From Acetobacteraceae bacterium (GTDB lineage Bacteria > Pseudomonadota > Alphaproteobacteria > Acetobacterales > Acetobacteraceae): a DNA stretch of 32,550 bases. Shown here in pieces: positions 11,706 through 31,842 of the stretch (positions are counted from its first letter, which is position 1; the number at the start of each line of letters is the position of its first letter). A program made the translations under genes and the position numbers. Below the pieces are notes generated by a model. The model searched no databases. It was not told the origin of the DNA and worked only from the letters and a program-made list of their open reading frames with translations. The stretch spans positions 1 through 32,550 of the forward strand of contig JANWXJ010000247.1 of the NCBI GenBank assembly GCA_025055335.1. Reading direction: 5' to 3'.

Positions 11706-12013
11706 GCGGCCGGGGGTCCGAAGGCGGGCTTGCCGCCGGTGATGTCGAGGAAACGGTCCACGGTGACGGTGGCGAACAGCCCCGCTTCCGCGAAGGGGTC
11801 GGATGCGGCGATCGCGCGGGCGGCGGCGATGTCCGGGCAGTCGAGCACGAACACGCTGCCGATGCGGGAGCCGTCCTCCTCCGAGACGATCGGCCCCGAG
11901 AGCTTCACCGTGGCGCCGAGGCGCTTCAGGTGCTCTCGGTGCGCGGGGTAGATCGCCTCGCGGATCGCCGCACCCCCCGGCTTGTCGAGGCAGCGCACGA
12001 GGTAGAGCGGCAT
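11702..12013 (-). CDS. YciI family protein (ferredoxin-like alpha+beta fold)
   Basis: Small 103-aa protein of the YCII-related family, related in fold to muconolactone isomerases. It starts MPLYLVRCLDKPGG, has the conserved PAHREHLKRLG helix and ends with SDPFAEAGLFATVTVDRF, the typical late motif. ATG 12013 overlaps the dioxygenase stop (TGATG); GTG 12016 is an alternative one codon upstream. Its stop overlaps the BKACE start by 4 nt. In aromatic operons such proteins sometimes handle lactones or muconate derivatives, so a role just after ring cleavage is plausible but unproven. Confidence 0.85.
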   Translation of the reverse strand: MPLYLVRCLDKPGGAAIREAIYPAHREHLKRLGATVKLSGPIVSEEDGSRIGSVFVLDCPDIAAARAIAASDPFAEAGLFATVTVDRFLDITGGKPAFGPPAA

Positions 12014-16754: not shown

Positions 16755-16801
16755 TTTTCCCTCCCCTGCGAGCGGCGCGCCTGCCCCTTGGACGCCCGCG
16801 C

Positions 16802-16831
16802 GTGATACGGCCGGCTATTGTTCTATGTCAA
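16802..16831 (-). promoter_or_regulatory. Candidate promoter of the Rieske oxygenase genes, overlapping the iclR stop
   Basis: On the minus strand a consensus -35 TTGACA (16826-16831) overlaps the stop codon of the IclR gene, and a -10-like TATCAC lies 18 bp downstream (16802-16807), 48 bp before the alpha-subunit ATG. The 10-bp palindrome AAATGCATTT (16830-16839) touches the -35 box and could be a regulator site. Confidence 0.5.
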
Positions 16832-17610
16832 ATGCATTTTGCTTCGTGCAAAGTGCCGAAGCCCAGCGCCGCCCCCGCCATTCTCGCCGCCTGCCGCAGC
16901 ACGGCCTCGACGGCCGGATCCTCCGCCGGCGGCGAGGTTGCGGCGGCGATCGTCGTCATCACCAGCGCAAGGCGGCCTTGCGCGTCGAACACCGGGGCGG
17001 CGGCCGCCCTGAGGCCCGGGATCAGGCTCGAGTCCGCCCGCGCGATCCCCTCCGCCCGGACACAGGCGGCCTCCTGGTCGGCATCGCCGCCGCGCGCGGC
17101 CGCCTCCCGCCGGGCGGCGGCCCGGATCTCCTCGGCATCGCCGAAGGCGAGGAACACCCGCCCCGTCGCCGATCCCAGCACCGGCAGGACCGAACCGAGC
17201 CCGAGTGTGGTGAGCAGCGCCGGCCGCCCCGGAAGCCAGCGCACCACGGTCGGGCCGGCGTCGCCCCACACGGCGAGAAGGACGGTCCGGCCCGTCTCGG
17301 CCACCAGCCGGGCGGCGGCCCGTTCGGCCTCCGCCAGGGGATCGAGCCGCGCGAGCGCCGCAAGGCCGAGGCGCAGCACCCGCGGCCCGAGATCGTACAG
17401 CGCCCCGGCCGCATCCCGCCGGGCCATCCCGGCGGCGATCAGGCTGGCGAGGTAGCGGTGCGCCTGGCTTGCCGAGATGCCGGCGGCACGGGCGATCTCG
17501 GAGAGCGAGGCCGCCCGCCCCGCCGCGGCCAGCGCCTCGAGCACGCGCAGCGCCGTGCCGACCGAGCCGATGCCCCGCCGGGCGCCCGCGGGGCGGGGCG
17601 GCCGCGTCAT
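16828..17610 (-). CDS. IclR-family transcriptional regulator
   Basis: 260 aa. The N-terminal winged helix-turn-helix is at about residues 15-75 (GTALRVLEALAAAG, then LSEIARAAGISASQAHRYL), and the C-terminal GAF-like effector domain includes GSVLPVLGSATGRVFLAF and the late SLIPGLRAAAAPVFDAQG motif. IclR proteins often control aromatic catabolism and bind pathway acids. It lies 13 nt after the gentisate dioxygenase gene and 73 nt before the Rieske genes on the same strand, so it is embedded in the operon it probably regulates. Confidence 0.9.
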   Translation of the reverse strand: MTRPPRPAGARRGIGSVGTALRVLEALAAAGRAASLSEIARAAGISASQAHRYLASLIAAGMARRDAAGALYDLGPRVLRLGLAALARLDPLAEAERAAARLVAETGRTVLLAVWGDAGPTVVRWLPGRPALLTTLGLGSVLPVLGSATGRVFLAFGDAEEIRAAARREAAARGGDADQEAACVRAEGIARADSSLIPGLRAAAAPVFDAQGRLALVMTTIAAATSPPAEDPAVEAVLRQAARMAGAALGFGTLHEAKCI

Positions 17611-17623
17611 CCGCGCGGTCGGG

Positions 17624-18655
17624 TCAGCCCCGCCCCTCCCGCCAGATGTTCAGCCTCTCCTGCGCCGGGCGGTCGGAGAGGGTGAACAGCACGCTCTCCT
17701 CGGCGGCCTCGTGGCGGAAGCGCGTCCAGTTCGGCACGATGAACACGTCCTTCGGACCCCAGTCGAACCACTGGCCGCCGATCTCGGTGCGGCCGCGGCC
17801 CTCGACGCACACCACGATCTGCCCGTCGGTCTGGCGCGCCGGGGCGCCGGCGAAGCCCTTCGGCAGCAGCGACAGGATCCCGCCCATGGTGGGCGTGGGC
17901 CAGCCGCCGGTGCGGGGATGGGCGTAGCGCAGGCGGAAGCCGTGCACCGCGTCATGCGCCGCATGCCGCGCGATCCGCGCCAGCGCCTCGCGCGAGCGGT
18001 CGTAGCGGTAGTTGATGATGGGCGAGTTCGGGCTGTCGCTCTCCGGCTCGAGCGGCAGCATGGAGGCGGCGTAGCGCCCGAGGCTGTCGTCCTGCGGCTT
18101 CTTCTGCGGGTAGATCTCCTCCTCGTGGTGCTCGAGGAAGGCGCATTCGAAGAAGTTCACGATCGGCAGGTCGAGGCCGTCGAGCCAGATCACGGGCTCC
18201 GTGCCGGTGTGCCCGTGGTCGTGCCAGGTCCAGGAGGGGGTGATGACGAAATCGCCCGGGTGCATGGCCGTGCGCTCGCCGTCCACCGCGGTGTAGGCGC
18301 CCTCGCCCTCCAGGATGAAGCGGATCGCCCCCGCCACGTGGCGATGCGCGCGCGCGACTTCGCCCGGCAGGATGAGCTGCAGCCCGGCGTAGATGGTGGG
18401 TGTCGCGCGGGACTGGCCGCGATAGGCCGGGTTCTCGAGCACCAGCACGCGGCGCTCCGCCTCCTCTGCGGTGATGACGCGGCCGGCCTCGAGCAGCAGC
18501 GGCTTCACCTCGTTCCAGCGCCACAGCTTGGCGCGCGCCGAGGATTTCGGCTCGCGCGGGACGATGGTCTTCAGCACCTCCCACAGCGGGGCGAGGTCGT
18601 CGCGGCCGATGCGGTCGTAGTATTCCTGCCGGGCCGGCGGGATCGGGTTGTCCAT
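17624..18655 (-). CDS. gtdA: Gentisate 1,2-dioxygenase
   Basis: Bicupin Fe(II) dioxygenase, 343 aa, cleaving gentisate (2,5-dihydroxybenzoate) to maleylpyruvate. The iron ligands are His104 and His106 (ARAHRHVAGAIRF) and His145 (SWTWHDHGH), at the same positions known for E. coli-type gentisate dioxygenase. Other family marks are LWRWNEVKPLLLEAG (44-58) and WLDGLDLPIVNFFE. The second cupin (TMGGILSLLPKGF, then DVFIVPNWTRFRHEA) lacks a full metal site, as usual. Start ATG 18655 is preceded by GGGAAGGAG. It is the first gene of the gtdA-iclR-Rieske run and would consume the Rieske enzyme's product. Maleylpyruvate isomerase and fumarylpyruvate hydrolase are not in the window. Confidence 0.93.
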   Translation of the reverse strand: MDNPIPPARQEYYDRIGRDDLAPLWEVLKTIVPREPKSSARAKLWRWNEVKPLLLEAGRVITAEEAERRVLVLENPAYRGQSRATPTIYAGLQLILPGEVARAHRHVAGAIRFILEGEGAYTAVDGERTAMHPGDFVITPSWTWHDHGHTGTEPVIWLDGLDLPIVNFFECAFLEHHEEEIYPQKKPQDDSLGRYAASMLPLEPESDSPNSPIINYRYDRSREALARIARHAAHDAVHGFRLRYAHPRTGGWPTPTMGGILSLLPKGFAGAPARQTDGQIVVCVEGRGRTEIGGQWFDWGPKDVFIVPNWTRFRHEAAEESVLFTLSDRPAQERLNIWREGRG

Positions 18656-18765: not shown

Positions 18766-19737
18766 ATGCACCGACGCGCCCTCCTCGCCGCCCCCGCACT
18801 GCTGCTTGCGCCGCGGCTCGCCGCTGCGCAGGGCGGCTATCCGTCGCGCCAGGTCGCGATCGTCGTCGGCGTCGCGCCGGGCGGCACCGCCGACATGGCG
18901 GCGCGCATCCTGGCCGAAGGCTTCCCCCGGCGCTTCGGCGACCGCTTCCCCTTCGTGGTCGAGAACCGCCCGGGTGCGGCGACGCAGATCGGCACCGCCC
19001 ATGTCGCGCGACAGCCGGCGGACGGCCACACGCTGCTGGTGGCCGGCGCGCCTTTCGCCATCAATCCCGCCCTGTTCCCGGCACTCCCCTACGACACCGC
19101 GCGCGATTTCGCCGCCATCACGCTGCTCGTGCGCAACGGCCTGTTCCTCGTGGTGCCCGCCGCCTCGCCGGTGCGCGACATGGCGGGGTTCCTCGCGCTC
19201 GCACGCAGCCGCAACGGGCTGAACATGGCCTCGGCCGGCAACGCCTCGATGAGCCACATGGCGCTCGAGCTGCTCGCTTCGCGCAGCGGCGCGCCGCTCG
19301 TGCATGTGCCGTTCCGCGGCTCGGGGCTCGCCATGCCGGCGCTGCTCGGCGGCCAGGTGGACGCGATGTTCGAGAACCCCTCGACCTGCCTGCCGCTGGT
19401 GCGGGAGGGGCGGCTGCGCGCCATCGCCTTCACCGGCGCCGAGCGCAGCGCCGCCGCGCCGGAGGTGCCGACGGTCGCCGAGGCCGCGGGGCTGCCGGGC
19501 TTCCTCGCGCTCAACTTCTTCGGGCTGTGGGCGCGCAGCGGCACGCCGGAGACGATCCTGGACGCGATCCACGCCGCGACGGTGGAGATCCTCGGCCGCC
19601 CCGAGGTGGTGGACCGCTTCGCCCGCGACGGGGTGGAGCCCGCGCCGATGCCGCGCGCGGCCTTCGCCGGGTTCGTCGCGGAGCAGATGCGCGTCTGGGC
19701 CGAGGTGGTGCGCGAGCGCGGCATTCAGCCCGGCTGA
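18766..19737 (+). CDS. Bug/TctC-family periplasmic solute-binding receptor
   Basis: TTT receptor of 323 aa, divergent from gentisate dioxygenase with a 110-nt gap. The signal peptide is MHRRALLAAPALLLAPRLAA with cleavage near AAAQ (20-22). It has VVGVAPGGTADMAARIL in place of the commoner VPFPPGGPTD, then VVENRPGAATQIGTAHVARQ, QPADGHTLL and VPTVAEAAGLPGF. Divergence in the first ligand loop marks it as a different subgroup from the tandem pair. It may feed the gentisate/salicylate module across the shared upstream region, or the LysR operon it faces. The last 13 nt overlap the end of the converging lysR-type gene. Confidence 0.9.
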   Translation: MHRRALLAAPALLLAPRLAAAQGGYPSRQVAIVVGVAPGGTADMAARILAEGFPRRFGDRFPFVVENRPGAATQIGTAHVARQPADGHTLLVAGAPFAINPALFPALPYDTARDFAAITLLVRNGLFLVVPAASPVRDMAGFLALARSRNGLNMASAGNASMSHMALELLASRSGAPLVHVPFRGSGLAMPALLGGQVDAMFENPSTCLPLVREGRLRAIAFTGAERSAAAPEVPTVAEAAGLPGFLALNFFGLWARSGTPETILDAIHAATVEILGRPEVVDRFARDGVEPAPMPRAAFAGFVAEQMRVWAEVVRERGIQPG

Positions 19738-20600
19738 GCGGCGAGCAGCGCGGCGAGGCGTTCGGCGGCGGCGCCCGCGCCGGGGCGGTGCAGCGCCAGC
19801 ACGTCGCGCCGCACCAGCGGGCGGGAAAGGCGCTTCATCGCGACCGCCTCGCCAGCGAGGCGCGCGGCGATGGTCGGCAGCGGCGCCACGCACAGCCCGG
19901 CCGACACCAGCGCCAGGGCGGTGGCGATGTGCGCCGCCTCGAAGGCGGGACGCGCCTGCGGCAGCCCGGCGGCGGAGAGCGCCGCCTCGATCAGCGGACG
20001 CAGCGCCGAATCGCGCGGCAGCACCAGCGCCTCGCCGGCGAGGTCGCCCCATGTCGCGGCGCGGACGCGGGCAAGCGGGTGCGCGCGCGGCACGAACAGG
20101 GCGAGATGGTCGGACAGCACGCGGCGCGCGACGAGGCCCGCCTCCGCCCCCGGCAGGAAGGTGGCAACCCCGAGCTCGGCCGATCCGTCCTGCACACGTT
20201 CCAGCACCCCGGCAGCGGTCGCCTCGATCAGCCGCACCTCGACCGCCGGGTAGGCGGCGCGGAGCGAGGCGATGGCCGGCGGCAGCAGCGTGGCGGCGAG
20301 CAGCGGGACGGTCGCCACCACGAGCGCCGGCGGGCCGGCCAGCGCCCGTACCCCGGCGAGCGCCGCCGAAAGGTCGGCCAGCAGCGCCGCCGCGCGCGGG
20401 CGGAAACCGGCCCCGGCAGGCGTGAGCTCGACGCGGCGGGTGGTGCGGCGGAACAGCGCCGCGCCGGCGATGGCCTCGAGCTCGCGCACCAGCGCCGAGA
20501 CGGTGGATTGCCCGCAGCCGAGCCGGCGGGCCGCGGCGCCGAAGCCGCCCGTCTCGGCCACCGCGAGGAAGGCGCGCAGGTGGCGCGGCGTCGCATCCAT
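19725..20600 (-). CDS. LysR-family transcriptional regulator
   Basis: 291 aa. The winged helix-turn-helix is at residues 1-60 (HLRAFLAVAETGGFGAAARRL, then QSTVSALVRELEAIAGAALF, RRTTRRVELTPAG), followed by a LysR substrate-binding domain (PAVEVRLIEA, LGVATFLPGAEAGL, LPLARVR-type region, ALALVSAGLCVAPLP). It is divergent from the Mo-hydroxylase operon with an array of ATCCATCG boxes between, so it most likely activates that operon and represses itself, as LysR proteins usually do. One box lies over its own start codon. Confidence 0.92.
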   Translation of the reverse strand: MDATPRHLRAFLAVAETGGFGAAARRLGCGQSTVSALVRELEAIAGAALFRRTTRRVELTPAGAGFRPRAAALLADLSAALAGVRALAGPPALVVATVPLLAATLLPPAIASLRAAYPAVEVRLIEATAAGVLERVQDGSAELGVATFLPGAEAGLVARRVLSDHLALFVPRAHPLARVRAATWGDLAGEALVLPRDSALRPLIEAALSAAGLPQARPAFEAAHIATALALVSAGLCVAPLPTIAARLAGEAVAMKRLSRPLVRRDVLALHRPGAGAAAERLAALLAAQPG

Positions 20601-20686: not shown

Positions 20687-22900
20687 ATGCCGGACGGCAG
20701 CCGAAGCAAGACGGGCGGCTTCATCGGGCGGGCGCTGCGCCGGCGCGAGGATGCCGCGCTGCTGACCGGCCAGGGCCGCTTCGCGGCCGACATCCCGCCG
20801 CCGCCCGGCACGCTCCTCGCGCGATTCCTGCGCGCGCCCTTCGGCCCGGCGCGCCTGACCGCGCTCGACACCGCGCCCGCGCTTGCCCTGCCCGGCGTGG
20901 TCGCCGTGTTCACCGCGTCCGATCTGCCGGCGGCCTCGCAGCCGGCGGTGAACCGCTTCTTCGACGGGCTGCCGCCGGCCGGCTTCGCGCCCCTCTTCGG
21001 CCCGGAGGTGCCTTGCGCCGGCGCGCCCGTCGCGCTCGTGCTCGCCGGCACCGCCGCCGCGGCGGAGGATGCGGTGGAGGCGCTGCAGCCCACCCTGCTT
21101 CCCGACCCGCAGCCCGAACGGCCCGCCTTCGCCGCCACCTTCGGCAACGGGGCGGGGCGCGCGCCCCTTGCCGTCTGTGCCACGCTGCGCCATGCGCGGC
21201 TGTCCCCGGCGGCGATGGAGCCGCGCGCGGTGCTGGCGGTGCCGGAGGGGGGGCGGCTGCGTCTGCACCTCTCCTCGCAGACGCCGCACCGCGCCCGCGC
21301 CGACCTTGCGGCGGTGCTCGGGCTCGATCCGGCGCTGATCCATGTCGCCGGCGGGGATGTCGGCGGCTCCTTCGGCGCCAAGGCCTCGATCACGCCGGAG
21401 GAGGCGGCGGTGGCCGCGGCGGCGTGGCGGCTCCAGCGCCCGGTGCGCTGGGTGGCGACCCGCAGCGAGGAGTTCCTCTCCGCCCCGCGCGGCCGCGGCC
21501 TCGCGCTCTCGGCGCGCATGGGCTTCGACGGGACGGGGCGGGCCCTGTCGCTCGAGGCCGAGGTGTCCGCCGCACTCGGCCACCGCCTGACGTATTCGGC
21601 GGCGGTGCCGGCGCGCAACGCCGCGCGCTGCCTGCCCGGGCCCTATGCGGTGCCGGCGGTGGCCGTCCGCGCCGAGGGACGGATCACGCCCGAACCCGCC
21701 ATCGGCATCTATCGCGGCGCCGGCCGGCCGGAGGCGGCGATCCTGCTCGAGCGCCTGATGGACAGCGCGGCGGCGCGGCTCGGCCTCACGCCCGTGGCCA
21801 TCCGCCGGCGCAACCTGCTGCCGCGCGAGGCGCTGCCGCACCGGACCCCGACGGGCGAGACGCTCGATTCCGGCGACTACCCGGCGCTGCTCGATCGCGC
21901 GCTGGCGCTGGCCGGCGGCGCGTGGGAGGCGCTGGCGGCCGAGCGCGACGCGCGGCGCGCGCGCGGCGAGCATGTCGGGCTCGGGCTTGCCTGCTACGTC
22001 GAACCCTGCGGCCAGGGGTGGGAATCGGCGCGCATCTCGGTCGGCGCCGACGGGCGCGTGACGGTCGCGACAGGCTCCACCGCGCAGGGCCAGGGGCGCG
22101 AGACGGCGGCGGCGCAGATCGTCGCGGATGCGCTGCGCCTGCCCGATCCCTCGCTCGTCCTGGTGCTGCACGGGGATACCGACGCGACGCCGGAGGGCAT
22201 CGGCGCGCTCGCCTCGCGCTCGACCGGAATCGGCGGCGGCGCGCTGTGGCTCGCCGCCGAGCGGCTGCAGGAGGCCGCGCGCCCGCTCGCGGCGCGGCTC
22301 CTGAACGCGGCAGCCGAGGATGTGGTGCCTGCCCCGGGCGGCTTCGCGCTTGCCACCGATCCGGCGCGGCGGATCGGCTGGGCGGCGGTCGCACCCCTCT
22401 CTGTCGAGGCGCGCTTCACCGCCGCGCGCGAGGCCTGGAGCGCCGGCTGTGTCATCGCGCGCGTCGCGCTCGACGGCGAGACCGGCGCGGTGGCCATCGA
22501 GCATCTCGCCTGGGCCGACGATGCGGGCACCCTCGTCAATCCGCTGCTGGCCGAGGGGCAGATGTGGGGCGGCCTTGCCCAGGGCATCGGCGAGGTGCTG
22601 TGCGAGCGCATCGCGACCGACGCGGCCGGCACGCTGCTGTCGGGCAGCCTGATGGACTACGCGCTGCCGCGTGCGGAGGACATGCCGCAGGCCGTCGCCC
22701 TCGGCGGGCCGGCGATCCCTTCGCGCGCCCTGAACAACCCGCTCGGCGCCAAGGGGATCGGCGAGGCGGGCACCATCGGCGTGCCGGCGGCGCTGCTCAA
22801 CGCCGTCTCGGACGCCGTCGGCGGCCTGCCCGAGGAGGTGGCGCTGCCGCTCACCCAGGAAACCGTCTGGCGCCTGCTGCGCCGAGGAGGACCGCGATGA
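20687..22900 (+). CDS. Xanthine dehydrogenase-family molybdopterin-binding (large) subunit
   Basis: 737-aa large subunit of a molybdenum hydroxylase, which adds water-derived oxygen to N-heterocycles or aldehydes. Landmarks are GGFIGRALRRREDAALLTGQGRF at the N terminus, VHVAGGDVGGSFGAKA-like IHVAGGDVGGSFGAKA, IGIYRGAGRPEAA, TVATGSTAQGQGRETA, and the catalytic Glu693 in GAKGIGEAG. It lacks the AYRCSFR signature of true CO dehydrogenase, so it is a form II/other-substrate enzyme. ATG 20687, with GGGGAGGGG just before, is preferred over the in-frame ATG 20636, which lies in the LysR box array. The iron-sulfur (CoxS) and FAD (CoxM) subunits are not adjacent, which is unusual. Its stop overlaps the DapA-like start (ATGA). 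Confidence 0.88.
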   Translation: MPDGSRSKTGGFIGRALRRREDAALLTGQGRFAADIPPPPGTLLARFLRAPFGPARLTALDTAPALALPGVVAVFTASDLPAASQPAVNRFFDGLPPAGFAPLFGPEVPCAGAPVALVLAGTAAAAEDAVEALQPTLLPDPQPERPAFAATFGNGAGRAPLAVCATLRHARLSPAAMEPRAVLAVPEGGRLRLHLSSQTPHRARADLAAVLGLDPALIHVAGGDVGGSFGAKASITPEEAAVAAAAWRLQRPVRWVATRSEEFLSAPRGRGLALSARMGFDGTGRALSLEAEVSAALGHRLTYSAAVPARNAARCLPGPYAVPAVAVRAEGRITPEPAIGIYRGAGRPEAAILLERLMDSAAARLGLTPVAIRRRNLLPREALPHRTPTGETLDSGDYPALLDRALALAGGAWEALAAERDARRARGEHVGLGLACYVEPCGQGWESARISVGADGRVTVATGSTAQGQGRETAAAQIVADALRLPDPSLVLVLHGDTDATPEGIGALASRSTGIGGGALWLAAERLQEAARPLAARLLNAAAEDVVPAPGGFALATDPARRIGWAAVAPLSVEARFTAAREAWSAGCVIARVALDGETGAVAIEHLAWADDAGTLVNPLLAEGQMWGGLAQGIGEVLCERIATDAAGTLLSGSLMDYALPRAEDMPQAVALGGPAIPSRALNNPLGAKGIGEAGTIGVPAALLNAVSDAVGGLPEEVALPLTQETVWRLLRRGGPR

Positions 22901-23883
22901 CCCTGCCCTACACGCGCTCGACCGCCAAGGAATACGCGCGCGAGCACCTGCGCGGCATCTGGGCGGCGGCGATGACGCCCTTCCGCCCCGACCTCTCGAT
23001 CGACGAGCAGGGCTTCCGCCGCAACCTGCGCCACTGGTTCCACGATCTCGGGATCGACGGCGTGTTCGTGGCGGGCAAGCAGGGCGAGTTCTACGCCCTC
23101 TCGCTTCCCGAGCGGAAGCGGCTGTGCGACATCGCGGTGGAGGAGGCGAAGGCGGCGAAGCGCCAGGTGATCTACAGCGCCTCCGACCAGAACATGGACA
23201 CCGTGATCGAGCTCGCCCGCCACGCCGAGGCGGCGGGTGCGGACTGGATTGTGGTGCATGCGCCGGTGCTGCATTTCGTGCACGACCAGGCCGACACGCT
23301 CCGCGCCTACTACGCGCGCATCGCCGAGGCGAGCGGCATCGGCATCGCCATGTGGTCGCATCCGGATTCGGGCTACCTGATGTCGCCCGAACTCTGCGCC
23401 ACCATCGCGCGCGAGGTGCCGAGCGTGGTCGCCATCAAGTACTCCGTGCCGCGGCCGATGTATGCCGAACTCACGCGTCTTGCGGGCGATGCGCTGATCG
23501 TCTCGACCGCGAGCGAGGAGGAGTGGCTCGACAACATCCTCGAGCTCGGCTGGCGGCTCTATCTCTGCTCCGCGCCCCCCTTCCTGCTGCAGACGGCGAA
23601 CGACAGGCGGATGCGCGAGTACACGGACGCCGCCTTCGCCGGCCGCGCCGAGGAGGCGCGGCGCATCTCGGCAAGCCTCGAGCCGGTGCGCCGGGCGCTC
23701 AAGTCCTCCCGCCCGCCGGGCAAGCCGCATGCCCAGCAGAAGGCCTGGATGGAGCGGCTGGGCCAGGCGGGGGGGCCGGTGCGGCCGCCGATGCTGGAGC
23801 TGACCGTCGCCGAGCGAGATGCCGTCAATCGCGCCTTCGACTCCTGCGGGCTGATCCCCGCCATCCGCGCCGCTGCAGAATAA
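22897..23883 (+). CDS. DapA-superfamily (DHDPS-like) lyase/aldolase of unknown substrate
   Basis: 328-aa class I aldolase-type TIM barrel. The Schiff-base lysine is Lys181 in VVAIKYSVPRP, and GIWAAAMTPFRPD (20-32) is the typical N-terminal strand. It is unlikely to be true dihydrodipicolinate synthase: the GTTGE motif is AGKQGEF (59-65), and the PYY segment carrying the catalytic Tyr is HAPVLHF (121-127). Family members in aromatic operons include hydratase-aldolases that release pyruvate and an aldehyde, which is a reasonable model here. It overlaps the Mo-hydroxylase stop by 4 nt and precedes the 3-hydroxyanthranilate dioxygenase by 11 nt, so it belongs to the same operon. Substrate unknown. 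Confidence 0.85.
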   Translation: MTLPYTRSTAKEYAREHLRGIWAAAMTPFRPDLSIDEQGFRRNLRHWFHDLGIDGVFVAGKQGEFYALSLPERKRLCDIAVEEAKAAKRQVIYSASDQNMDTVIELARHAEAAGADWIVVHAPVLHFVHDQADTLRAYYARIAEASGIGIAMWSHPDSGYLMSPELCATIAREVPSVVAIKYSVPRPMYAELTRLAGDALIVSTASEEEWLDNILELGWRLYLCSAPPFLLQTANDRRMREYTDAAFAGRAEEARRISASLEPVRRALKSSRPPGKPHAQQKAWMERLGQAGGPVRPPMLELTVAERDAVNRAFDSCGLIPAIRAAAE

Positions 23884-23894
23884 CGGAGAGAGCC

Positions 23895-24431
23895 ATGATC
23901 CCGCCCTTCAACTTCGCCCGCTGGATCGAGGAGAACCAGCAGTTCCTGAAGCCGCCCGTCGGCAACAAGCAGCTCTATCCCGGTGCGGGGATGGTGGTGC
24001 AGGTGGTCGGCGGCCCGAACCGCCGCGTGGATTTCCACGACGATCCGGTGGAGGAGTTCTTCTACCAGCTCCGCGGCGACATGGTGCTGAAGGTGCACGA
24101 CCGCGGGAAGATCGAGGACATCCGGATCAGGGAAGGCGACGTGTTCCTGCTGCCGGCGCATATGCGCCACTCGCCGCAGCGGCCCGTACCCGGCTCGGTC
24201 GGGCTGGTGGTGGAGGGCACGCGCCGCCCGGGCGACAAGGACGGCTTCGAGTGGTTCTGCTTCTCCTGCGGGGGCCTCGTGCACCGGGTCGAGGTGGACC
24301 TCAAGGACATCGTGGCCGACCTGCCGCCGCTCTACGAGGCGTTCTACGGCAGCGAGCAGGCCCGCACCTGCCGGCACTGCGGCACGCTGCATCCGGGGAA
24401 GGAGCCGCCCGAGGGGTGGGTCCGGCTGTGA
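23895..24431 (+). CDS. nbaC: 3-hydroxyanthranilate 3,4-dioxygenase
   Basis: Cupin Fe(II) extradiol dioxygenase, 178 aa, turning 3-hydroxyanthranilate into 2-amino-3-carboxymuconate 6-semialdehyde. The catalytic iron ligands are His48, Glu54 and His92 (DFHDDPVEEFFY, AHMRHSPQRP). The second, rubredoxin-like metal site of the bacterial enzyme is intact: Cys122/Cys125 (CFSC) and Cys159/Cys162 (CRHC). These spacings match the well-studied bacterial enzyme with a constant shift of 3. GGAGAG precedes ATG 23895. The stop overlaps the hydrolase start (GTGA). The usual next enzyme, the semialdehyde decarboxylase, is missing from the window. Confidence 0.95.
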   Translation: MIPPFNFARWIEENQQFLKPPVGNKQLYPGAGMVVQVVGGPNRRVDFHDDPVEEFFYQLRGDMVLKVHDRGKIEDIRIREGDVFLLPAHMRHSPQRPVPGSVGLVVEGTRRPGDKDGFEWFCFSCGGLVHRVEVDLKDIVADLPPLYEAFYGSEQARTCRHCGTLHPGKEPPEGWVRL

Positions 24432-25306
24432 TCGCGGCGGAGCGGCTGGCGCCGGACCGGCGCCTGCCTCCGCCGCCGCCGCTTCCTGATCTCGATGTCG
24501 CGGAGGTTGACGCCGCCGCGCTCGGCCTGTCCGGCCCGCGGCTGTCCTTCCTGGCGGCGGGGCCTGGCGAGGGCCCGCCGGTCGTGCTGCTGCACGGGAT
24601 CGCCGCCAACGCCACCGGATGGCGCTTCCTGCTTGATGCGCTCGCCGCGTCGCGCTTCCGGGCCATCGCGTGGAACGCGCCCGGCGCCATGCTGTCCGAC
24701 CCCTTCCGGGCCGAGACGCCGCGCCCGGAGGACTATGCCGACGCGCTCGCCCCGCTGATGGATGCCCTCGGGATCGGACGCGCCGACCTCGTCGGCTCCT
24801 CCTTCGGCACGCTGGTCGCCATGTGCTTCGCGGTGCGGCATGCGCGGCGTGTGCGGCGGCTCGTGCTGCTCGGCTGCTCGCGCGGGCAGCGCTGGAAGAC
24901 GGCGGAGGAGCGCGCGCGCATGCTGGCGATGCGCGCCGCGATGGCGGCACAGGGCGGACCGGCGATGGCGCGCGAACGCGCCGCGGCGCTGCTCGGCCCC
25001 GACCCGGATCCGGCCGTGCTTCCGCTGCTGCGGCGCATGCTCGCCGCGACCGACGGAGCGGCGCTGCTGCAGGCGGCGCGCTGCTCGGACGGCGCCGACA
25101 CGCTCGACTACGCGCCCGCGATCGCCGCACCTGCCCTGCTGCTGTGCGGCGAGGAGGACCGGGTGAACCCGCCCGAGGTGTCCTGCGCCGTCGCGGCGGC
25201 ACTGCCCGGCGCGCGGCTGGTTCTGCTGCCGGGCATCGGCCATCTGCCGGAACTGGAATGCCCCCGGACGACGGCGGCGCTGGTGGGCGAGCATCTGGAG
25301 CGCTGA
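24428..25306 (+). CDS. Alpha/beta-fold hydrolase
   Basis: 292-aa serine hydrolase. The oxyanion-hole motif is LLHGIAAN (54-61), the nucleophile Ser125 lies in GSSFG (123-127), and the triad is completed by Asp244 (GEEDRVNP) and His272 (GIGHLPELE). The N terminus is proline-rich (residues 14-20) and has no signal peptide, so the protein is cytoplasmic. The start GTG 24428 overlaps the dioxygenase stop. It resembles ring-fission-product or enol-lactone hydrolases in length and motif spacing, so it may cleave a C-C or ester/amide bond in the 3-hydroxyanthranilate-derived product. The specific reaction is not determined. Confidence 0.85.
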   Translation: MIAAERLAPDRRLPPPPPLPDLDVAEVDAAALGLSGPRLSFLAAGPGEGPPVVLLHGIAANATGWRFLLDALAASRFRAIAWNAPGAMLSDPFRAETPRPEDYADALAPLMDALGIGRADLVGSSFGTLVAMCFAVRHARRVRRLVLLGCSRGQRWKTAEERARMLAMRAAMAAQGGPAMARERAAALLGPDPDPAVLPLLRRMLAATDGAALLQAARCSDGADTLDYAPAIAAPALLLCGEEDRVNPPEVSCAVAAALPGARLVLLPGIGHLPELECPRTTAALVGEHLER

Positions 25307-25341: not shown

Positions 25342-25408
25342 CGCGAGGCGGGTGACAGCGCCGCGCCAGCGTCGCATCCTCTGCCGGAACCAGCCCGGGA
25401 GACACCGC

Positions 25409-26377
25409 ATGATCCGCCGCCGCCCGCTTGTCGCCGCCGCCCTGGCAGCGCCGCTGGTCGCCCGCGCGCAGGGCGCCTTCCCGAACCGGCGCGTCACCAT
25501 CATCGTGCCGTTCCCGGCCGGCGGCGGGCTCGACATCCTGACGCGCGCGATCGCCGAGCATCTGCAGGGCGCCTGGGGGCAGCCGGTGGTGGTGGAGAAC
25601 CGGCCGGGCGGCTCCACCATCCCCGGCGCCGACGCGGTGGTGCGCGCCGCCCCCGACGGCCACACGCTTCTGCTGACGGCCGACAACACCATCACTTCCA
25701 ATCCGCACCTGTTCCGCAACCTGCCGCACGACCCGATCCGCGACCTCGCGCCGGTCACGCATGTCGTGGACGTGCACCAGATGGTGGTGTCGAGCGCGGC
25801 GCTGGACGTGCGCGACATGGCGGGGCTTGTGGCGGCGGCGCGGGCGCGGCCGGGGCAGCTCAACTACGGATCCTTCGGGCCGGGCAGCCAGCCGCACCTC
25901 GCCTTCGAGGTGCTGAAGGCCGAGCACCGCCTCGACATCGTGCATGTCACCTATCGCGGCCTGCCGCAGGTGATCCCTGCGCTGCTCGCCGGAGAGATCC
26001 AGATGACGCTTTCGGGCATCGCCTCCGCCGGGCAGCATATCGCCACGGGGCGCCTGCGCGGGCTTGCGGTCGGGCGGCCGACGCGGTTCCCGACGCTGCC
26101 CGAGGTGCCGACGCTGGCCGAGGCCGGCTTCGACAGCATGGACCCGCGCACCTGGTTCGGCCTGTTCGCCCCGGCGGCGACGCCGCCCGCCATCATCGCC
26201 CAGATCCAGCGCGAGGTTGCGGCGGCGCTGCGCACCCCCGCCATCGCCGACCGCCACCTGACGCCGAACGGCTACACCGTCCACGCCAGCGAGCCTGCCG
26301 CCTTCGCCGCCTTCATCCGCGAAGACCTTGCCTACAAGGAGCGGATGATCCGCCTCTCCGGCGCCCGGGTGGAATGA
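25409..26377 (+). CDS. Bug/TctC-family periplasmic solute-binding receptor
   Basis: TTT receptor of 322 aa. The signal peptide MIRRRPLVAAALAAPLVARA has predicted cleavage after ARA (residue 20). Family motifs are IIVPFPAGGGLDILTRAI (31-48), VVVENRPGGST, APDGHTLLL and LPEVPTLAEAGFDS. An in-frame ATG at 25352 would add an Arg-rich, non-signal extension, so ATG 25409 is preferred, with GGGAGA upstream. It follows the 3-hydroxyanthranilate gene set by 102 nt with a hairpin between, and is followed by the ABC importer operon, so it may belong to either or stand alone. Confidence 0.9.
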   Translation: MIRRRPLVAAALAAPLVARAQGAFPNRRVTIIVPFPAGGGLDILTRAIAEHLQGAWGQPVVVENRPGGSTIPGADAVVRAAPDGHTLLLTADNTITSNPHLFRNLPHDPIRDLAPVTHVVDVHQMVVSSAALDVRDMAGLVAAARARPGQLNYGSFGPGSQPHLAFEVLKAEHRLDIVHVTYRGLPQVIPALLAGEIQMTLSGIASAGQHIATGRLRGLAVGRPTRFPTLPEVPTLAEAGFDSMDPRTWFGLFAPAATPPAIIAQIQREVAAALRTPAIADRHLTPNGYTVHASEPAAFAAFIREDLAYKERMIRLSGARVE

Positions 26378-26441
26378 CGGGGGCGCGAATCAGGTCTTTT
26401 AGGCTTCAACGATCTGCGCTAGGGTGGCTGCACGGGAGACA

Positions 26442-26458
26442 CCCTGGCGCAGCCAGGG
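26442..26458. promoter_or_regulatory. 17-bp inverted repeat in the leader of the ABC importer operon
   Basis: CCCTGGC-GCA-GCCAGGG is a perfect 7-bp inverted repeat with a 3-nt centre, immediately before the ribosome site (AAGGGAGAGA, 26461-26470) of the binding-protein gene. It could be a repressor operator or an mRNA hairpin tuning translation. A relatively AT-richer stretch upstream (26388-26415) probably holds the promoter, but no clear boxes can be fixed. Confidence 0.45.
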
Positions 26459-26474
26459 ACAAGGGAGAGACAGC

Positions 26475-27662
26475 ATGACCGCATCCATCACCCGCCGTGG
26501 CGTGCTCGCTGCCGGCACCGCGCTGGCGGCGGCGCCGCTCGCCGCGCCCGCGATCGCGCAGGGCGCGCCGCTGCGCATCGGCGTGATCACCACCCTCTCG
26601 GGCCCGGGCGGGTATCTCGGGGCCGACGCGCGCGACGCGCTGCTGCTCGCCGCCGAGATGAACGACGGGCGGCTGGGCGGCGTGCCCGTGCAGTTCGTGG
26701 TGGAGGACGACGCGCTGCGCCCCGCCCAGGGCAAGCAGATCGCCGAACGCTTCATCCGCAACGAGAGGATCCGGCTGTTCACCGGCGTCATCTTCTCGAA
26801 CGTGCTGGGCGCGGTGGTGCCCGACGTGCTGGACGGCAACGGCATCTACGTCTCCTGCAACGCGGGGCCGTCGAACTTCGCCGGGCGCGAGTGCCACCGG
26901 AACTACTTCGTCGTCTCCTGGCAGAACGACAACCTGCACGAATCCGCAGGCGCGCTCGCCAACATCATGGGCTACCGGCGCGTGTTCATCCTGGCGCCGA
27001 ACTACCAGGCGGGCCGAGACGCGCTGACGGGCTTCAAGCGCCTGTTCCAGGGCACGGTCACGAACGAGGTCTACACCCGCCTCGACCAGACCGACTACGC
27101 CGCCGAGATGGCGCAGATCCGCGCCGCGCGGCCCGATGCCGTGTACCACTTCCACCCGGGCGGCCTCGGCATCGCCTTCATCCGCCAATACGCGCAGGCC
27201 GGTCTGCTCGGCACCATCCCGCAGGTGCTGCCCGCGCCCTCGATGGATGTCGGCACGCTGGCCGCGGTGGGCGACGCCGCCGAGGGCATCGACCTCTCCA
27301 GCCACTGGAACAGCGACTTCGACAACGAGGAGAACCGCCGTTTCGTCGAGGCCTTCCGCCGCCGCTACAACCGGATCCCCACCTTCTACGCGCAGCAGGC
27401 CTACGACACGGCGCTGGCGATCGGCGCCGCCCTGCGCGGCGCGGGCGGCACGGTGGACAACACCGAGGCGTTCCGCACCGCCATGCTGCGCGCGGATTTC
27501 CGCTCGACCCGCGGCAGCTTCCGCTTCGGCCCCAACCAGCACCCGATCCAGGACTGGTACGCGCTGAAGGTGGAGCGGGTGGGCGGGCAGCTCGCCCTCG
27601 TCACCAAGCGGAAGATCCTCGAGAACCACGGCGACGCCTACGCCGCCCAGTGCCGGCTGTAA
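26475..27662 (+). CDS. Branched-chain amino acid-type ABC transporter substrate-binding protein
   Basis: Periplasmic ligand-binding protein of the LivJ/LivK (Peripla_BP_6) family, 395 aa. The twin-arginine-like signal is MTASITRRGVLAAGTALAAA with cleavage after AIA (about residue 28). It has RIGVITTLSGPGGYLG at the mature N terminus, VEDDALRPAQGKQIAERFI, the FILAPNYQAGRDALTGF hinge block and TFYAQQAYDTALAIGAAL. Such proteins may bind leucine-type amino acids, but in aromatic islands they often bind benzoate-like or other acids, so the ligand is open. ATG 26475 is preferred over 26424, which would precede the signal peptide with charged residues. It leads a complete liv-type operon. Confidence 0.92.
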   Translation: MTASITRRGVLAAGTALAAAPLAAPAIAQGAPLRIGVITTLSGPGGYLGADARDALLLAAEMNDGRLGGVPVQFVVEDDALRPAQGKQIAERFIRNERIRLFTGVIFSNVLGAVVPDVLDGNGIYVSCNAGPSNFAGRECHRNYFVVSWQNDNLHESAGALANIMGYRRVFILAPNYQAGRDALTGFKRLFQGTVTNEVYTRLDQTDYAAEMAQIRAARPDAVYHFHPGGLGIAFIRQYAQAGLLGTIPQVLPAPSMDVGTLAAVGDAAEGIDLSSHWNSDFDNEENRRFVEAFRRRYNRIPTFYAQQAYDTALAIGAALRGAGGTVDNTEAFRTAMLRADFRSTRGSFRFGPNQHPIQDWYALKVERVGGQLALVTKRKILENHGDAYAAQCRL

Positions 27663-27684
27663 CCCCGGAGCGCAGGAGGACGGC

Positions 27685-28599
27685 GTGGCGCTTCTGCTGG
27701 AGCAGCTGCTGAACGGCGTCCAGCTCGGCGTCACGCTGTTCCTGCTCGCCGCCGGGCTGACGCTGGTGTTCGGGATCATGGGCGTGATCAACCTCGCCCA
27801 TGGCTCGCTCTACATGATCGGCGCCTTCGCCGCCGCCTGGGTTGCGGCGCAGACAGGCAGCGTCCTGCTTGCGCTGCTCGGGGGGCTGGCGGCCGCAGCG
27901 GTCGTCGGCATGGCCATCGAGTTCGTGGTGCTGCGGCGCCTCTACGCGCGCGACCACCTCGATCAGGTTCTGGCCACCTTCGGCCTGATCCTGTTCTTCA
28001 ACCAGGGCATGGTGATCCTGTTCGGCCGCCAGCCGCTGTTCGTCGCCCTGCCCGAGTTCCTCTCCGGCGCCGTCGAGGTGCTCCCCGGCGTGCCCTATCC
28101 GGTCTACCGCCTGCTGATCATCGCCTGCGGGCTGCTGGTGGCGCTCGGGCTCTGGCTGCTCATCCAGCGGACGCGCATCGGCATGCTGGTGCGGGCGGGA
28201 GCGACGCACCGGGAGATGGTGCGCGCCCTCGGCGTGGACATCCGGCTGCTCTACACCCTCGTCTTCGGGCTCGGCGCGCTGCTCGCGGGCTTCGCCGGCA
28301 TCATGGCCGGGCCGGTGTATTCCGTGAATGTCGGCATGGGCGAGCAGATCCTGATCCTGACCTTCGTCGTGGTCGTCATCGGCGGCGTCGGCTCGATCCG
28401 GGGGGCGATGTACGGCGCGCTGCTGGTCGGCATCGTGGACACGCTGCTGCGCGCCTATGTGCCGGGGCTGCTGCGCGGCGTGATGGACGCGTCTCAGGCG
28501 GACATGCTGGGGGCCGGCCTCGCCTCGATGGGCGTCTATCTGCTGATGGCGCTGGTGCTGCTGCTGAAGCCGCGAGGCCTCTTCCCGGCCCATGCGTGA
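27685..28599 (+). CDS. livH: Branched-chain amino acid-type ABC transporter permease LivH
   Basis: Inner-membrane permease, 304 aa, with about eight hydrophobic segments. The family signature GLTLVFGIMGVINLAHGSL is at about residues 24-42, followed by GAFAAAWVAAQ. The cytoplasmic ABC-contact loop (GATHREMVRALGVDI, about 171-185) and the VVVVIGGVGSIRGA motif near residue 230 are clear. Translation starts with GTG 27685, preceded by GCAGGAGGA. It sits 22 nt after the binding-protein gene, and its end overlaps livM by 8 nt. Confidence 0.95.
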   Translation: MALLLEQLLNGVQLGVTLFLLAAGLTLVFGIMGVINLAHGSLYMIGAFAAAWVAAQTGSVLLALLGGLAAAAVVGMAIEFVVLRRLYARDHLDQVLATFGLILFFNQGMVILFGRQPLFVALPEFLSGAVEVLPGVPYPVYRLLIIACGLLVALGLWLLIQRTRIGMLVRAGATHREMVRALGVDIRLLYTLVFGLGALLAGFAGIMAGPVYSVNVGMGEQILILTFVVVVIGGVGSIRGAMYGALLVGIVDTLLRAYVPGLLRGVMDASQADMLGAGLASMGVYLLMALVLLLKPRGLFPAHA

Positions 28600-29563
28600 A
28601 CGCATCGTCCTCGCGGCACTGCTTGCCGCTGCCGTCGCGCTGCCCTGGATCGCCGAGGCGCTCGGCACGCCCGCGACCGTCGGTGTCGCGACCCGCATCG
28701 CGATCTACGCCATCGCCGCCGCGTCGCTGAACCTCATTCTCGGCTACGGCGGCCTCGTCTCCTTCGGCCATGCGGCCTATTTCGGGCTCGGCGGCTACAC
28801 CGTCGGCATATTGTGGGAGCACTTCCGCCTGAACGAGCCGTTCCTCGGCATCATCCCCGGCACGGCGGAGCTGCTCGTCACCTTCCCCGCCGCCATCCTG
28901 GTGGGCGGGCTTGCGGCGGCGGCGATCGGCGCGCTGTCGCTGCGCACCTCGGGCGTGCAGTTCATCATGATCACGCTCGCCTTCGCGCAGATGGTGTATT
29001 TCCTCTTCGTCTCGCTGGCCGTCTACGGCGGCGACGACGGGCTGATGATCCGCCGCCCGAACGCCTTCCTCGGCCTCAACCTGCGCGATCCGGCCACGAT
29101 GTACTGGCTGTCGCTCGCGGTGCTGGTGTTCTGGCTGTGGCTGATGGGCCGGGTCGTGCGCTCGCGCTTCGGCCGGGTGCTGGAAGGCGTCCGGCAGAGC
29201 GAACGGCGCATGGCGGCGATCGGCATCTCCACCTACCCCTACAAGCTGGCGGCCTTCGCCATCGCAGGTGCTGCCTGCGCCGCCGCCGGGGCGCTGTGGG
29301 CGAACTACGCCCGCTTCGTCAGCCCCGACATGATGCACTGGACGAAATCGGGCGAGCTGATGATCATGGTGATCCTGGGCGGCCTCGGCACCCTGCTCGG
29401 GCCGGTGCTCGGGGCGGCCGCGCTGGTCGGGCTGGAATACACGCTCTCCGGCATCACCGAGCACTGGCAGTTCGTGCTCGGCCCGATCCTGGTGGCGATC
29501 GTGCTGTTCGCGCGGAAGGGGCTGATGAGCCTGTTCGGCCGCTGGGGGCCCGGCAATGGCTGA
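28592..29563 (+). CDS. livM: Branched-chain amino acid-type ABC transporter permease LivM
   Basis: Second permease, 323 aa, with a largely hydrophobic profile. The LivM signature AASLNLILGYGGLVSFGHAA (about 45-64) precedes YFGLGGYTVGIL, and later come SLRTSGVQFIMITLAFAQM, the coupling loop VRQSERRMAAIGIS and LGGLGTLLGPVLGAA. The 8-nt overlaps with livH upstream and livG downstream indicate tight translational coupling. It forms the heterodimeric channel with LivH. Confidence 0.95.
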   Translation: MRERIVLAALLAAAVALPWIAEALGTPATVGVATRIAIYAIAAASLNLILGYGGLVSFGHAAYFGLGGYTVGILWEHFRLNEPFLGIIPGTAELLVTFPAAILVGGLAAAAIGALSLRTSGVQFIMITLAFAQMVYFLFVSLAVYGGDDGLMIRRPNAFLGLNLRDPATMYWLSLAVLVFWLWLMGRVVRSRFGRVLEGVRQSERRMAAIGISTYPYKLAAFAIAGAACAAAGALWANYARFVSPDMMHWTKSGELMIMVILGGLGTLLGPVLGAAALVGLEYTLSGITEHWQFVLGPILVAIVLFARKGLMSLFGRWGPGNG

Positions 29564-30314
29564 GCCGGTGCTCGCCGTCCGCAACCTCGTCAAGCGCTTC
29601 GGCGGCTTGGTCGCGACGGACGATCTCACCCTCGAGGTGCGCCCCGGCGAACTCCACGCCCTGATCGGCCCGAACGGCGCCGGCAAGACCACGGCGATCG
29701 GCCAGATCTGCGGCGAGATCGCGCCCGATTCCGGCAGCATCCGCTTCGACGGCGCCGACATCACCGGCCTTTCCTTCGCGCAGCGGGTCAGGCGCGGCCT
29801 CTCCCGCACCTTCCAGATCGTGCAGCTGCTCGACGACGACACCGCGCTCGAGAACGTCTCGCTCGCCGTGCAGGCGGCGGAGGGCCACTCCTTCCGCTTC
29901 TGGCGCAACGCGCGCCTCGACCGGCGCCTGACCGACCGCGCGCGGGCGCTTCTCGCGCAGGTCGGCCTGCCCGAGGAGCGCGCCCGCGTCCGCGCCTCCG
30001 ACCTCAGCCACGGCGAGCGCAAGCAGCTCGAACTCGCGATCGCCCTCGCGCCCGGACCCAAGCTGCTGCTGCTGGACGAGCCGATGGCCGGCCTCGGCGC
30101 CGCCGAATCGCTGCGCATGACGGAGGTGCTGCGCGCGCTCAAGGGCCGGATCCCGATGCTCCTCGTCGAGCACGACATGGACGCGGTGTTCGCCCTGGCC
30201 GACCGCGTGTCGGTGCTGGTGTACGGGCGCTGCATCGCCTCCGGCCTGCCGGAGGCGATCCGCGCCGACCCGGCGGTGCGCGAGGCCTACCTGACCGAGG
30301 AGGACGGCCACTGA
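29556..30314 (+). CDS. livG: Branched-chain amino acid-type ABC transporter ATPase LivG
   Basis: 252-aa cytoplasmic ATPase. The Walker A motif is GPNGAGKTT (about 38-46), the signature is LSHGERKQLELAIAL (about 148-162), Walker B is LLLLDEPMAGL, and the switch His lies in LLVEHDMD. SRTFQIVQLLDDDTALENV is the Q-loop region. The signature has LSHGE, a common LivG variant of LSGGQ. The stop overlaps the livF start (TGATG). Confidence 0.95.
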   Translation: MAEPVLAVRNLVKRFGGLVATDDLTLEVRPGELHALIGPNGAGKTTAIGQICGEIAPDSGSIRFDGADITGLSFAQRVRRGLSRTFQIVQLLDDDTALENVSLAVQAAEGHSFRFWRNARLDRRLTDRARALLAQVGLPEERARVRASDLSHGERKQLELAIALAPGPKLLLLDEPMAGLGAAESLRMTEVLRALKGRIPMLLVEHDMDAVFALADRVSVLVYGRCIASGLPEAIRADPAVREAYLTEEDGH

Positions 30315-31015
30315 TGCTCGAGGTCGCCTCCCTCCACGCCGGCTACGGCCGCAGCGAGGTGCTGTTCGACGTGAACCTCGTGGTCGGCGAGGGCGAGGTC
30401 GTCACCCTGCTCGGGCGCAACGGCATGGGCAAGACGACGACGGTGCGGGCGATCATGGGCCTCAATCCGCCGCGCGGCGGCAGCGTGCGGTTCCTCGGTC
30501 GGGATGTCGCGGGGCTGCCGCCGGAGGCGATCGCGCGGCTCGGCGTCGGGCTCGTGCCCGAAGGCCGGCAGGTGTTCCCGACACTGACGGTGCGCGAGAA
30601 CCTTGTCGCCACCGCGGCCAACCGCACTGGCAACCCGCAACCCTGGCGTCTGCCCGAGGTGTTCGCGCTGTTCCCGCGCCTCGAGGAGAGGGCGAACCAG
30701 CTCGCGCGCACCCTCTCGGGCGGCGAGCAGCAGATGCTCGCGATCGGGCGGGCGCTGATGACGAATCCGCGGCTGCTCATCCTCGACGAGGCGACCGAGG
30801 GCCTCGCCCCGGTGATCCGCGCCGAGATCTGGGCGACGCTTGCGCGGCTGAAGGAGCGCGGCCAGGCGATCCTGGTGATCGACAAGAACCTCTCGGCGCT
30901 GACGAAGCTCGCCGACCGGCACTTCGTGCTGGAGAAGGGCCGCACCGTCTGGTCGGGCACGAGCGCGGAGCTTCGCGCCGAGGCCGAGCGCGTGAAGGGA
31001 TGGATCGGCGTATGA
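30314..31015 (+). CDS. livF: Branched-chain amino acid-type ABC transporter ATPase LivF
   Basis: 233-aa second ATPase. Walker A is GRNGMGKTT (about 34-42), the signature is LSGGEQQMLAIGRAL, and Walker B is LLILDEATEGLAP. LVPEGRQVFPTLTVREN is the typical LivF Q-loop segment. The switch region reads ILVIDKN where LivF proteins usually have VEQN, a modest departure. The stop overlaps the ATG of the downstream hydrolase (ATGA at 31012-31015), which ties that enzyme to the transporter. Confidence 0.95.
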   Translation: MLEVASLHAGYGRSEVLFDVNLVVGEGEVVTLLGRNGMGKTTTVRAIMGLNPPRGGSVRFLGRDVAGLPPEAIARLGVGLVPEGRQVFPTLTVRENLVATAANRTGNPQPWRLPEVFALFPRLEERANQLARTLSGGEQQMLAIGRALMTNPRLLILDEATEGLAPVIRAEIWATLARLKERGQAILVIDKNLSALTKLADRHFVLEKGRTVWSGTSAELRAEAERVKGWIGV

Positions 31016-31842
31016 GCTGGCAGGGCAAGCCGCGCGACTGGCTGGACCGGGAGTACAACGCCCGCGCCACCGTGCCCGACATCTTCCCGATCATCGCCCT
31101 CGGGCGCGAACGGACGGAGGCCGCCAAGGCCGCGCTCCGCTGGTCCCGCCACGCCTACGGCCCGACGGAGCCGGAGCGGCTCGACATCTACCCGGCCGCC
31201 GCCAAGGGGCCGGCGCCGGTGTTCGTGTACATCCACGGCGGCTACTGGCGGCTTCTCGACGCCGACGATTCCGGCTTCATGGCGCCGGCCTTCTCGGCGC
31301 TGGGTGCCGTGACGGTGGCGCTGAACTACGCGCTGGCGCCTGCTGTGACGCTCGAGGAGATCGTTCGCCAGTGCCGCGCTGCGCTGGCGTGGCTCCGCGC
31401 CAACATCGCCCGCTTCGGCGGCGACCCGGCGCGCATCCACATCGCCGGCTCTAGCGCCGGCGGACACCTCGCGGCGATGCTGGCGCGCGAGGAGGGCGTG
31501 GCGGGGGCCACCATGCTCTCCGGCCTCATGGATGTGGAGCCGCTCGTGCATTGCCACGTCAACGAGTGGCTGAACCTCACGCCCGAACGCGCCCGCGCGC
31601 TGTCGCCGCTGCAGCTTCCTCCGCCGCCGGCGGGACGGCCCTTCGTCTTCAGCGTGGCGCCGAACGAGACCTCGGAGTTCAAGCGGCACACCGCCGAACT
31701 CGCCGAAGCCTGGCGCGCGGCCGGCTGCGAGGTGACGGTGGTGGCCCCGCCACCCGCCTCCAACCACTTCGATCTGCCCTACGAGTTCTGCGATCCCTGC
31801 TCGCCCCTGATGCGGGCGGTGCGGCGCGCGATGGGGCTCTAG
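31012..31842 (+). CDS. Alpha/beta hydrolase, arylformamidase (kynurenine formamidase)-like
   Basis: 276-aa serine hydrolase of the HGGYW type. The oxyanion motif HGGYW is at residues 75-79, the nucleophile Ser148 lies in GSSAGGH (146-152), the likely acid is in NETSEF (218-223), and the catalytic His252 is in SNHFDLPY. The spacing and the HGGYW and EF blocks resemble animal-type arylformamidase (N-formylkynurenine to kynurenine), though many bacterial esterases share this fold. ATG 31012 overlaps the livF stop; the in-frame ATG 31000 would overlap livF further. Being coupled to an importer, it probably acts on the imported compound. With a 3-hydroxyanthranilate dioxygenase nearby, a kynurenine-related substrate is attractive but unproven. 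Confidence 0.8.
   Translation: MSWQGKPRDWLDREYNARATVPDIFPIIALGRERTEAAKAALRWSRHAYGPTEPERLDIYPAAAKGPAPVFVYIHGGYWRLLDADDSGFMAPAFSALGAVTVALNYALAPAVTLEEIVRQCRAALAWLRANIARFGGDPARIHIAGSSAGGHLAAMLAREEGVAGATMLSGLMDVEPLVHCHVNEWLNLTPERARALSPLQLPPPPAGRPFVFSVAPNETSEFKRHTAELAEAWRAAGCEVTVVAPPPASNHFDLPYEFCDPCSPLMRAVRRAMGL

Follow-up and report, generated by a model that had tools for sequence, protein, structure and literature searches.

The window analysed here is a 32,550-nucleotide stretch from an Acetobacteraceae bacterium (contig C111 of a 2.92 Mb assembly in 256 contigs, 84% complete), in which four plus-strand genes at 20687-25306 overlap or nearly do so. The first (20687..22900) encodes the large, molybdopterin-binding subunit of a Mo-hydroxylase (MoL; Pfam MoCoBD_1/2 and Ald_Xan_dh_C), a proposed aldehyde oxidoreductase. 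The second (22897..23883) encodes a Schiff-base enzyme of the DapA/N-acetylneuraminate lyase (NAL) superfamily (PF00701), which we propose as a replacement for aminocarboxymuconate semialdehyde decarboxylase (ACMSD). It is followed by the gene for 3-hydroxyanthranilate 3,4-dioxygenase (HAO; 23895..24431) and by that for an alpha/beta hydrolase resembling PcaD and meta-cleavage hydrolases (24428..25306; PF00561/PF12697), regarded as accessory. The MoL and DapA genes share an ATGA overlap, DapA and HAO are separated by 11 bases, and HAO and the hydrolase overlap in GTGA. The initial annotation, made from the sequence alone, had described an overlapping four-gene operon at this place; its coordinates and gene identities are confirmed, the latter by Pfam and NCBIfam scans. 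DapA, HAO and MoL are kept across many families and are therefore not chance open reading frames (ORFs), the closest relatives by sequence being those of Elioraea (87% identity for HAO and 85% for DapA).

3-Hydroxyanthranilate is a product of tryptophan breakdown, and ACMSD decides whether it ends in quinolinate or in catabolism. The HAO of the window exceeds the cut-offs of two equivalog models (NF009763, 262.9 vs 220 bits; TIGR03037, 237.4 vs 145.95 bits) and is single-copy in its genome. A gap-free alignment to the Cupriavidus enzyme (1yfu) bears out the earlier statement that every metal ligand is present (H48, E54 and H92); the substrate residues N24, R44, R96 and E107 are kept as well, and four rubredoxin-type cysteines are also found. 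The absence of ACMSD, noted before for the operon, is upheld by a search of the window's genome with an ACMSD query that matched 2hbv over its full length: no true ACMSD was found, the best match lying on another contig with 32% identity (E 1e-41). The idea of a copy hidden elsewhere in this genome was rejected, the only matches being amidohydrolase paralogues with 28-32% identity. Given an 84% complete assembly, this absence alone is weak evidence; the same search found no ACMSD in the nearest relative, G193, which is 98% complete. The identification of the locus as a 3-hydroxyanthranilate operon without ACMSD is supported.

The conserved unit is the DapA-HAO pair. In 66 of the 81 loci that hold both genes, DapA immediately precedes HAO on the same strand; in the remaining ones the two share a cluster but stand a few kilobases apart. 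We surveyed 76 distinct HAO genomes (79 handles minus the duplicates G437=G193, G450=G003 and G459=G020), in which DapA orthologues were called at >=59% identity and E <= 3.4e-126, next-best paralogues reaching at most 32%, and true ACMSDs had E < 1e-60 and 37-65% identity. The DapA orthologue is present in 56 of these genomes, true ACMSD in 12, neither in eight and both in none (Fisher p 4e-9, kinship not corrected for), which agrees with the different downstream branch suggested by the initial annotation. The 80 loci taken from the genome collection are the most similar ones and so form a biased sample. A fairer test is provided by an even phylum sample of 397 genomes, requested at >=90% completeness, in which 28 genomes carry HAO, not counting that of the window. 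In this sample all 11 DapA carriers fall in the class of the window's genome, the one further HAO genome from this class (G658) has ACMSD, and outside the class ACMSD occurs in 10 of 16 HAO genomes.

The partner of HAO, either DapA or ACMSD, is swapped repeatedly on the HAO tree. Two DapA loci (L086 and L087) cluster with an ACMSD locus (L138) with support 99, and L090, in which ACMSD adjoins HAO, is nested within the DapA clade. The gene clusters HAO-ACMSD-KynU-KMO-TDO in L199 and HAO-KynU-KMO-TDO with an aldehyde dehydrogenase (ALDH), aspartate dehydrogenase (AspDH) and DapA in L086 differ little apart from an exchanged lower step. Such an exchange of partners around a constant HAO suggests that DapA and ACMSD both act on the ring-cleavage product, 2-amino-3-carboxymuconate 6-semialdehyde (ACMS), and we consider it very probable that DapA takes the place of ACMSD in this way.

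A second exchange concerns the Mo-hydroxylase. MoL has the cofactor domains and the active-site Glu of the xanthine dehydrogenase family; this residue, within GAKGIGEAG, is conserved across 20 aligned MoL loci, as is the loop GIYRGAGRPEA, with single substitutions in L014 and L020. Assignment as an aerobic CO dehydrogenase (CODH) was rejected, since the large-subunit cut-offs are missed (406.5 vs 950 and 287.3 vs 991 bits) and the loop reads as given above. Among 64 well-flanked DapA loci, with >=4 kb on each side, 18 contain MoL, 19 contain ALDH and none contains both (Fisher p 6e-4, kinship not corrected for). On the DapA tree the MoL/ALDH label changes seven times, at least four of the changes being forced by well-supported branches. 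Each of the 11 DapA genomes of the even sample has exactly one of the two within about 10 kb. The ALDH, which resembles succinate semialdehyde dehydrogenase (SSADH), has an orthologue (>=64% identity) in 17 genomes, all of them DapA-positive, and 10 of 10 strong matches to the MoL of L061 stand beside DapA. MoL probably serves in aldehyde oxidation as a stand-in for ALDH.

This exchange also bears on a proposal of the initial annotation, by which ACMS would cyclise to quinolinate, to be hydroxylated by the Mo enzyme. In a variant of this reading quinolinate would be used for NAD synthesis, and under either form DapA would assist or be peripheral. Spontaneous cyclisation of ACMS is established chemistry, and quinoline 2-oxidoreductase is the best solved-structure match of MoL. 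Hydroxylation of quinolinate is nevertheless disfavoured because the Mo enzyme is repeatedly swapped with an NAD-linked ALDH, which cannot hydroxylate a pyridine; moreover, the Mo enzyme is missing from most DapA-HAO loci, whereas DapA is nearly constant, and the importers beside the operon point to a catabolic role and not to the supply of NAD. We regard the quinolinate route as very unlikely. Nor do the four genes form the conserved set that had been expected: the hydrolase occurs in 7 of the 64 well-flanked loci, MoL is patchy, and all four genes are found together only in the window and in L014.

Further genes recur in the relatives of the operon. A NadX-type AspDH, whose product pair is aspartate/iminosuccinate, is linked to DapA in 9 of 11 DapA genomes of the even sample; by locus type, it accompanies 16 of 20 ALDH-type, 9 of 20 MoL-type and 6 of 42 other loci, and it is present in all six annotated plasmid loci. 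In a Phaeobacter plasmid the cluster reads HAO-ALDH-KynU-transporters-LysR-AspDH-DapA, and no further obvious step of the route was seen in the stretch read, which suggests that the enzymes of this cluster suffice to reach central metabolism. The AspDH of the window's own genome was rejected as a part of the module: the sole copy found is 33% identical and unlinked, near an apparent aminotransferase gene on contig C212.

The DapA-like protein itself is a new subfamily of the dihydrodipicolinate synthase (DHDPS)/NAL fold, judged from its sequence and predicted structure, and not a known enzyme of this superfamily. Its AlphaFold2 model is a confident TIM barrel (pLDDT 92.9) that comes closest, with a Z of about 34 at about 24% identity, to NAL and DHDPS, and the invariant K181 aligns with the Schiff-base lysine of NAL, so that both the barrel and the lysine of the superfamily are present. 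The catalytic Tyr, a rule in the superfamily from which the KdaD clade departs with a Glu (PMC13398020), is replaced by an invariant Trp153 (34/34 and 30/30 aligned sequences), and GKQGE stands where the superfamily has the GSTGE/GTTGE motif. H121, H155, D157 and R186 are also invariant in the subfamily. No NCBIfam equivalog fits the protein, the scores being 82.8 vs 373.95 bits for KdgD, 78.3 vs 206.15 for DapA and 65.2 vs 281 for NanA.

Of the two fates first envisaged for the ring-cleavage product, the findings agree with the second, in which the lyase cuts an open-chain compound. From the observed gene order, orthology and mutual exclusions, and from the predicted fold and residues, we infer the reactions past ring cleavage as follows. 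HAO would cleave the ring to ACMS, and Lys181 would displace ammonia at C2 to form a Schiff base. Aromatic hydratase-aldolases of the DHDPS/NAL superfamily use hydration followed by retro-aldol cleavage; by analogy, water could add at C4 of the 2-imino, C3=C4 tautomer, and the C3-C4 bond would then break in a retro-aldol step. The C4 half would be released as iminosuccinate or oxaloacetate, the often linked AspDH yielding aspartate, and the C3 half as malondialdehyde; had the aldehyde been oxidised beforehand, the C3 half would instead be malonate semialdehyde. Such prior oxidation, by the Mo-hydroxylase in the window and by the SSADH-like ALDH in relatives, would also block cyclisation to quinolinate. 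This split would account for the lyase, AspDH and the aldehyde-oxidising enzyme together, and the chance that DapA cleaves C3-C4 as a hydratase-aldolase seems to us only slightly short of even. For the overall reading, an ACMSD-free lower pathway for 3-hydroxyanthranilate made up of HAO, a DapA-family enzyme and an aldehyde-oxidising enzyme, the chances appear evenly balanced. A fuller version is put forward more tentatively still: in Alphaproteobacteria and some Gammaproteobacteria, a widespread lower kynurenine pathway may split ACMS or its acid directly into a C4 amino or keto acid (aspartate/oxaloacetate) and a C3 unit by means of a new subfamily of Schiff-base hydratase-aldolases with a Trp/His active site. 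Neither ACMSD nor quinolinate would then be involved, and an NAD-linked ALDH could take turns with a Mo aldehyde oxidase as partner.

The strict exclusivity with ACMSD is explained equally well by the main rival, which accounts for it most simply. By this rival, the DapA-like enzyme would decarboxylate ACMS through a Schiff base, replacing ACMSD without being its homologue and possibly releasing ammonia. The resulting amino- or hydroxymuconate semialdehyde would be oxidised, whether by ALDH or by the Mo enzyme, and enter the classical meta route. In ACMS the 3-carboxylate occupies the beta position relative to the C2 imine, an arrangement that on chemical grounds should favour Schiff-base decarboxylation, and the best NCBIfam match, KdgD, belongs to the superfamily and catalyses decarboxylation in addition to dehydration (PMC13398020), though the score is far under the cut-off. 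Decarboxylation would, however, leave AspDH unexplained, and later meta-pathway genes were not recognised in the compact clusters, whole genomes not having been searched for them. In the window, the ORF survey and domain scans recognised none of aminomuconate semialdehyde dehydrogenase (AMSDH), deaminase, 4-oxalocrotonate decarboxylase, hydratase or aldolase, the genomes again not having been searched. We consider the decarboxylase possible but rather doubtful.

Several observations weigh against an ACMSD-free pathway built around a C3-C4 split. With Trp153 and GKQGE, the chemistry of the DapA-like protein is not readable from known members of the superfamily. MoL stands without adjoining 2Fe-2S or FAD subunit genes (for example in the window, L166 and L169), and 13 queries found no 2Fe-2S small-subunit gene in the operon or in related MoL loci; its electron-transfer partners must be encoded elsewhere, and eight Fer2_2 genes do lie elsewhere in the window's genome. 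Neither MoL nor ALDH is nearby in 27 of the 64 well-flanked loci, whose genomes may use an unlinked aldehyde-oxidising enzyme. Many DapA loci lack AspDH, as does Elioraea G193, and in a canonical ACMSD cluster (L191, 5511-7951) an AspDH-like gene of 32% identity lies 0.7 kb from ACMSD. Finally, no kynureninase turned up in the window's genome or in its near relatives (Elioraea and several Roseomonas-type genomes); the substrate is therefore probably imported and might be an analogue.

That last point, together with the esterase and hydrolase genes carried by this sub-type, speaks for an operon acting on a substituted or different aminophenol acid taken up by the adjoining ABC system. Against such a substrate stand the HAO, which keeps all substrate-contact residues, and the orthologous modules elsewhere, which carry KynU, KMO and TDO; we find it unlikely. 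Under the ACMSD-free pathway as well, the ABC importer likely takes up the aromatic acid. This branched-chain-type system (26424..31015, plus strand; ORFs and recurring clusters) comprises a substrate-binding protein, two permeases and two ATPases. Its substrate-binding cluster, c2, is found in 38 of the 80 loci with the permease/ATPase clusters c3-c6 alongside, and the same importer is annotated as branched-chain-type ABC in Chelatococcus and Paroceanicella.

The remaining neighbours are as follows. A divergent LysR-family regulator (19725..20600, minus strand; PF03466/PF00126) precedes the operon, and one is also found upstream of MoL-DapA-HAO in L014, L020, L029, L050, L065 and L068. Downstream, at 25352..26377 (plus strand), lies a Bug/TTT-type periplasmic binding protein, taken from the ORF list with its family assigned by eye and a start perhaps nearer 25409. 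Orphan binding proteins of this type, also by eye, occur at 1883-4031, 9055-10035, 18766-19737 and 25352-26377, with no adjoining transporter membrane genes noticed. The importer is followed by a BD-FAE/HSL-type esterase with an HGGYW motif (31000..31842, plus strand; PF20434/PF07859), a type that recurs downstream of DapA-HAO loci; it is weakly arylformamidase-like, matching kynurenine formamidase 4e11 at 4.8e-11, which is not its best match. The nearest solved structures of the alpha/beta hydrolase are an esterase and HsaD/BphD-type hydrolases. In the tryptophan-degradation cluster of L086 (TDO, KMO, KynU), an arginase/agmatinase-family gene (8903-9898) lies directly upstream of HAO and might be the formylkynurenine formamidase, none other being recognised in that cluster.

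Two other aromatic blocks lie on the minus strand of the window. The one at 15028-18655 is probably a salicylate 5-hydroxylase/gentisate cluster, in which a gentisate 1,2-dioxygenase above the TIGR02272 cut-off adjoins an IclR-like regulator and a pair of Rieske oxygenase genes resembling AndAc/AndAd. At 10818-12846, an intradiol dioxygenase of catechol/hydroxyquinol type, a DUF849 (BKACE)-looking protein (by eye) and an SDR form a further aromatic-degradation block. A minus-strand stretch at 32115-32504, which by eye resembles the C-terminus of a ComM/YifB-type Mg-chelatase-like protein, places the end of the catabolic island near the end of the window.

The proposed route is widespread in bacteria and apparently undescribed. 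The open-access literature, with most subscription journals outside the search, yielded no link of HAO with a DapA-family enzyme and nothing relevant that ties 3-hydroxyanthranilate to AspDH, to dihydrodipicolinate synthase or to a new route for ACMS; the only report to combine 3-hydroxyanthranilate with dihydrodipicolinate, on paulomycin biosynthesis (PMC4802897), is unrelated and concerns dihydrodipicolinate reductase. If the proposal is true, most sampled HAO-bearing Alphaproteobacteria would use a second, unrelated solution to the ACMSD step, which would alter the annotation of their genomes, and the enzyme concerned would dispose of ACMS through another reaction. The route would also be a clear example of how a molybdoenzyme and an NAD-linked dehydrogenase can substitute for one another.

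Comparison with known systems places each component near an established family and apart from it. The nba/kynurenine-type meta pathway (HAO, ACMSD, AMSDH, deaminase) shares the HAO family, presumably the same cleavage product and, in some clusters, upstream kynurenine genes; the present clusters never occur together with ACMSD and instead hold a DapA-family enzyme along with AspDH and either an SSADH-like ALDH or the Mo enzyme. The DapA-like protein has the TIM barrel, the Schiff-base lysine and, presumably, alpha-keto-acid-like substrates in common with DHDPS/NAL enzymes such as KdgD and trans-o-hydroxybenzylidenepyruvate hydratase-aldolase, but is at most about 26% identical to the solved members listed and is set apart by Trp153, GKQGE and the lack of a fitting family model. 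The AspDH relatives score as NadX aspartate dehydrogenase, one of them above the equivalog cut-off, yet they sit in a catabolic cluster, and the window itself has none. MoL shares three cofactor domains and the active-site Glu with the xanthine dehydrogenase family (quinoline 2-oxidoreductase, glyceraldehyde oxidoreductase, CODH), from which it differs in having no small-subunit gene, in being tied to DapA-HAO and in being swapped with ALDH.

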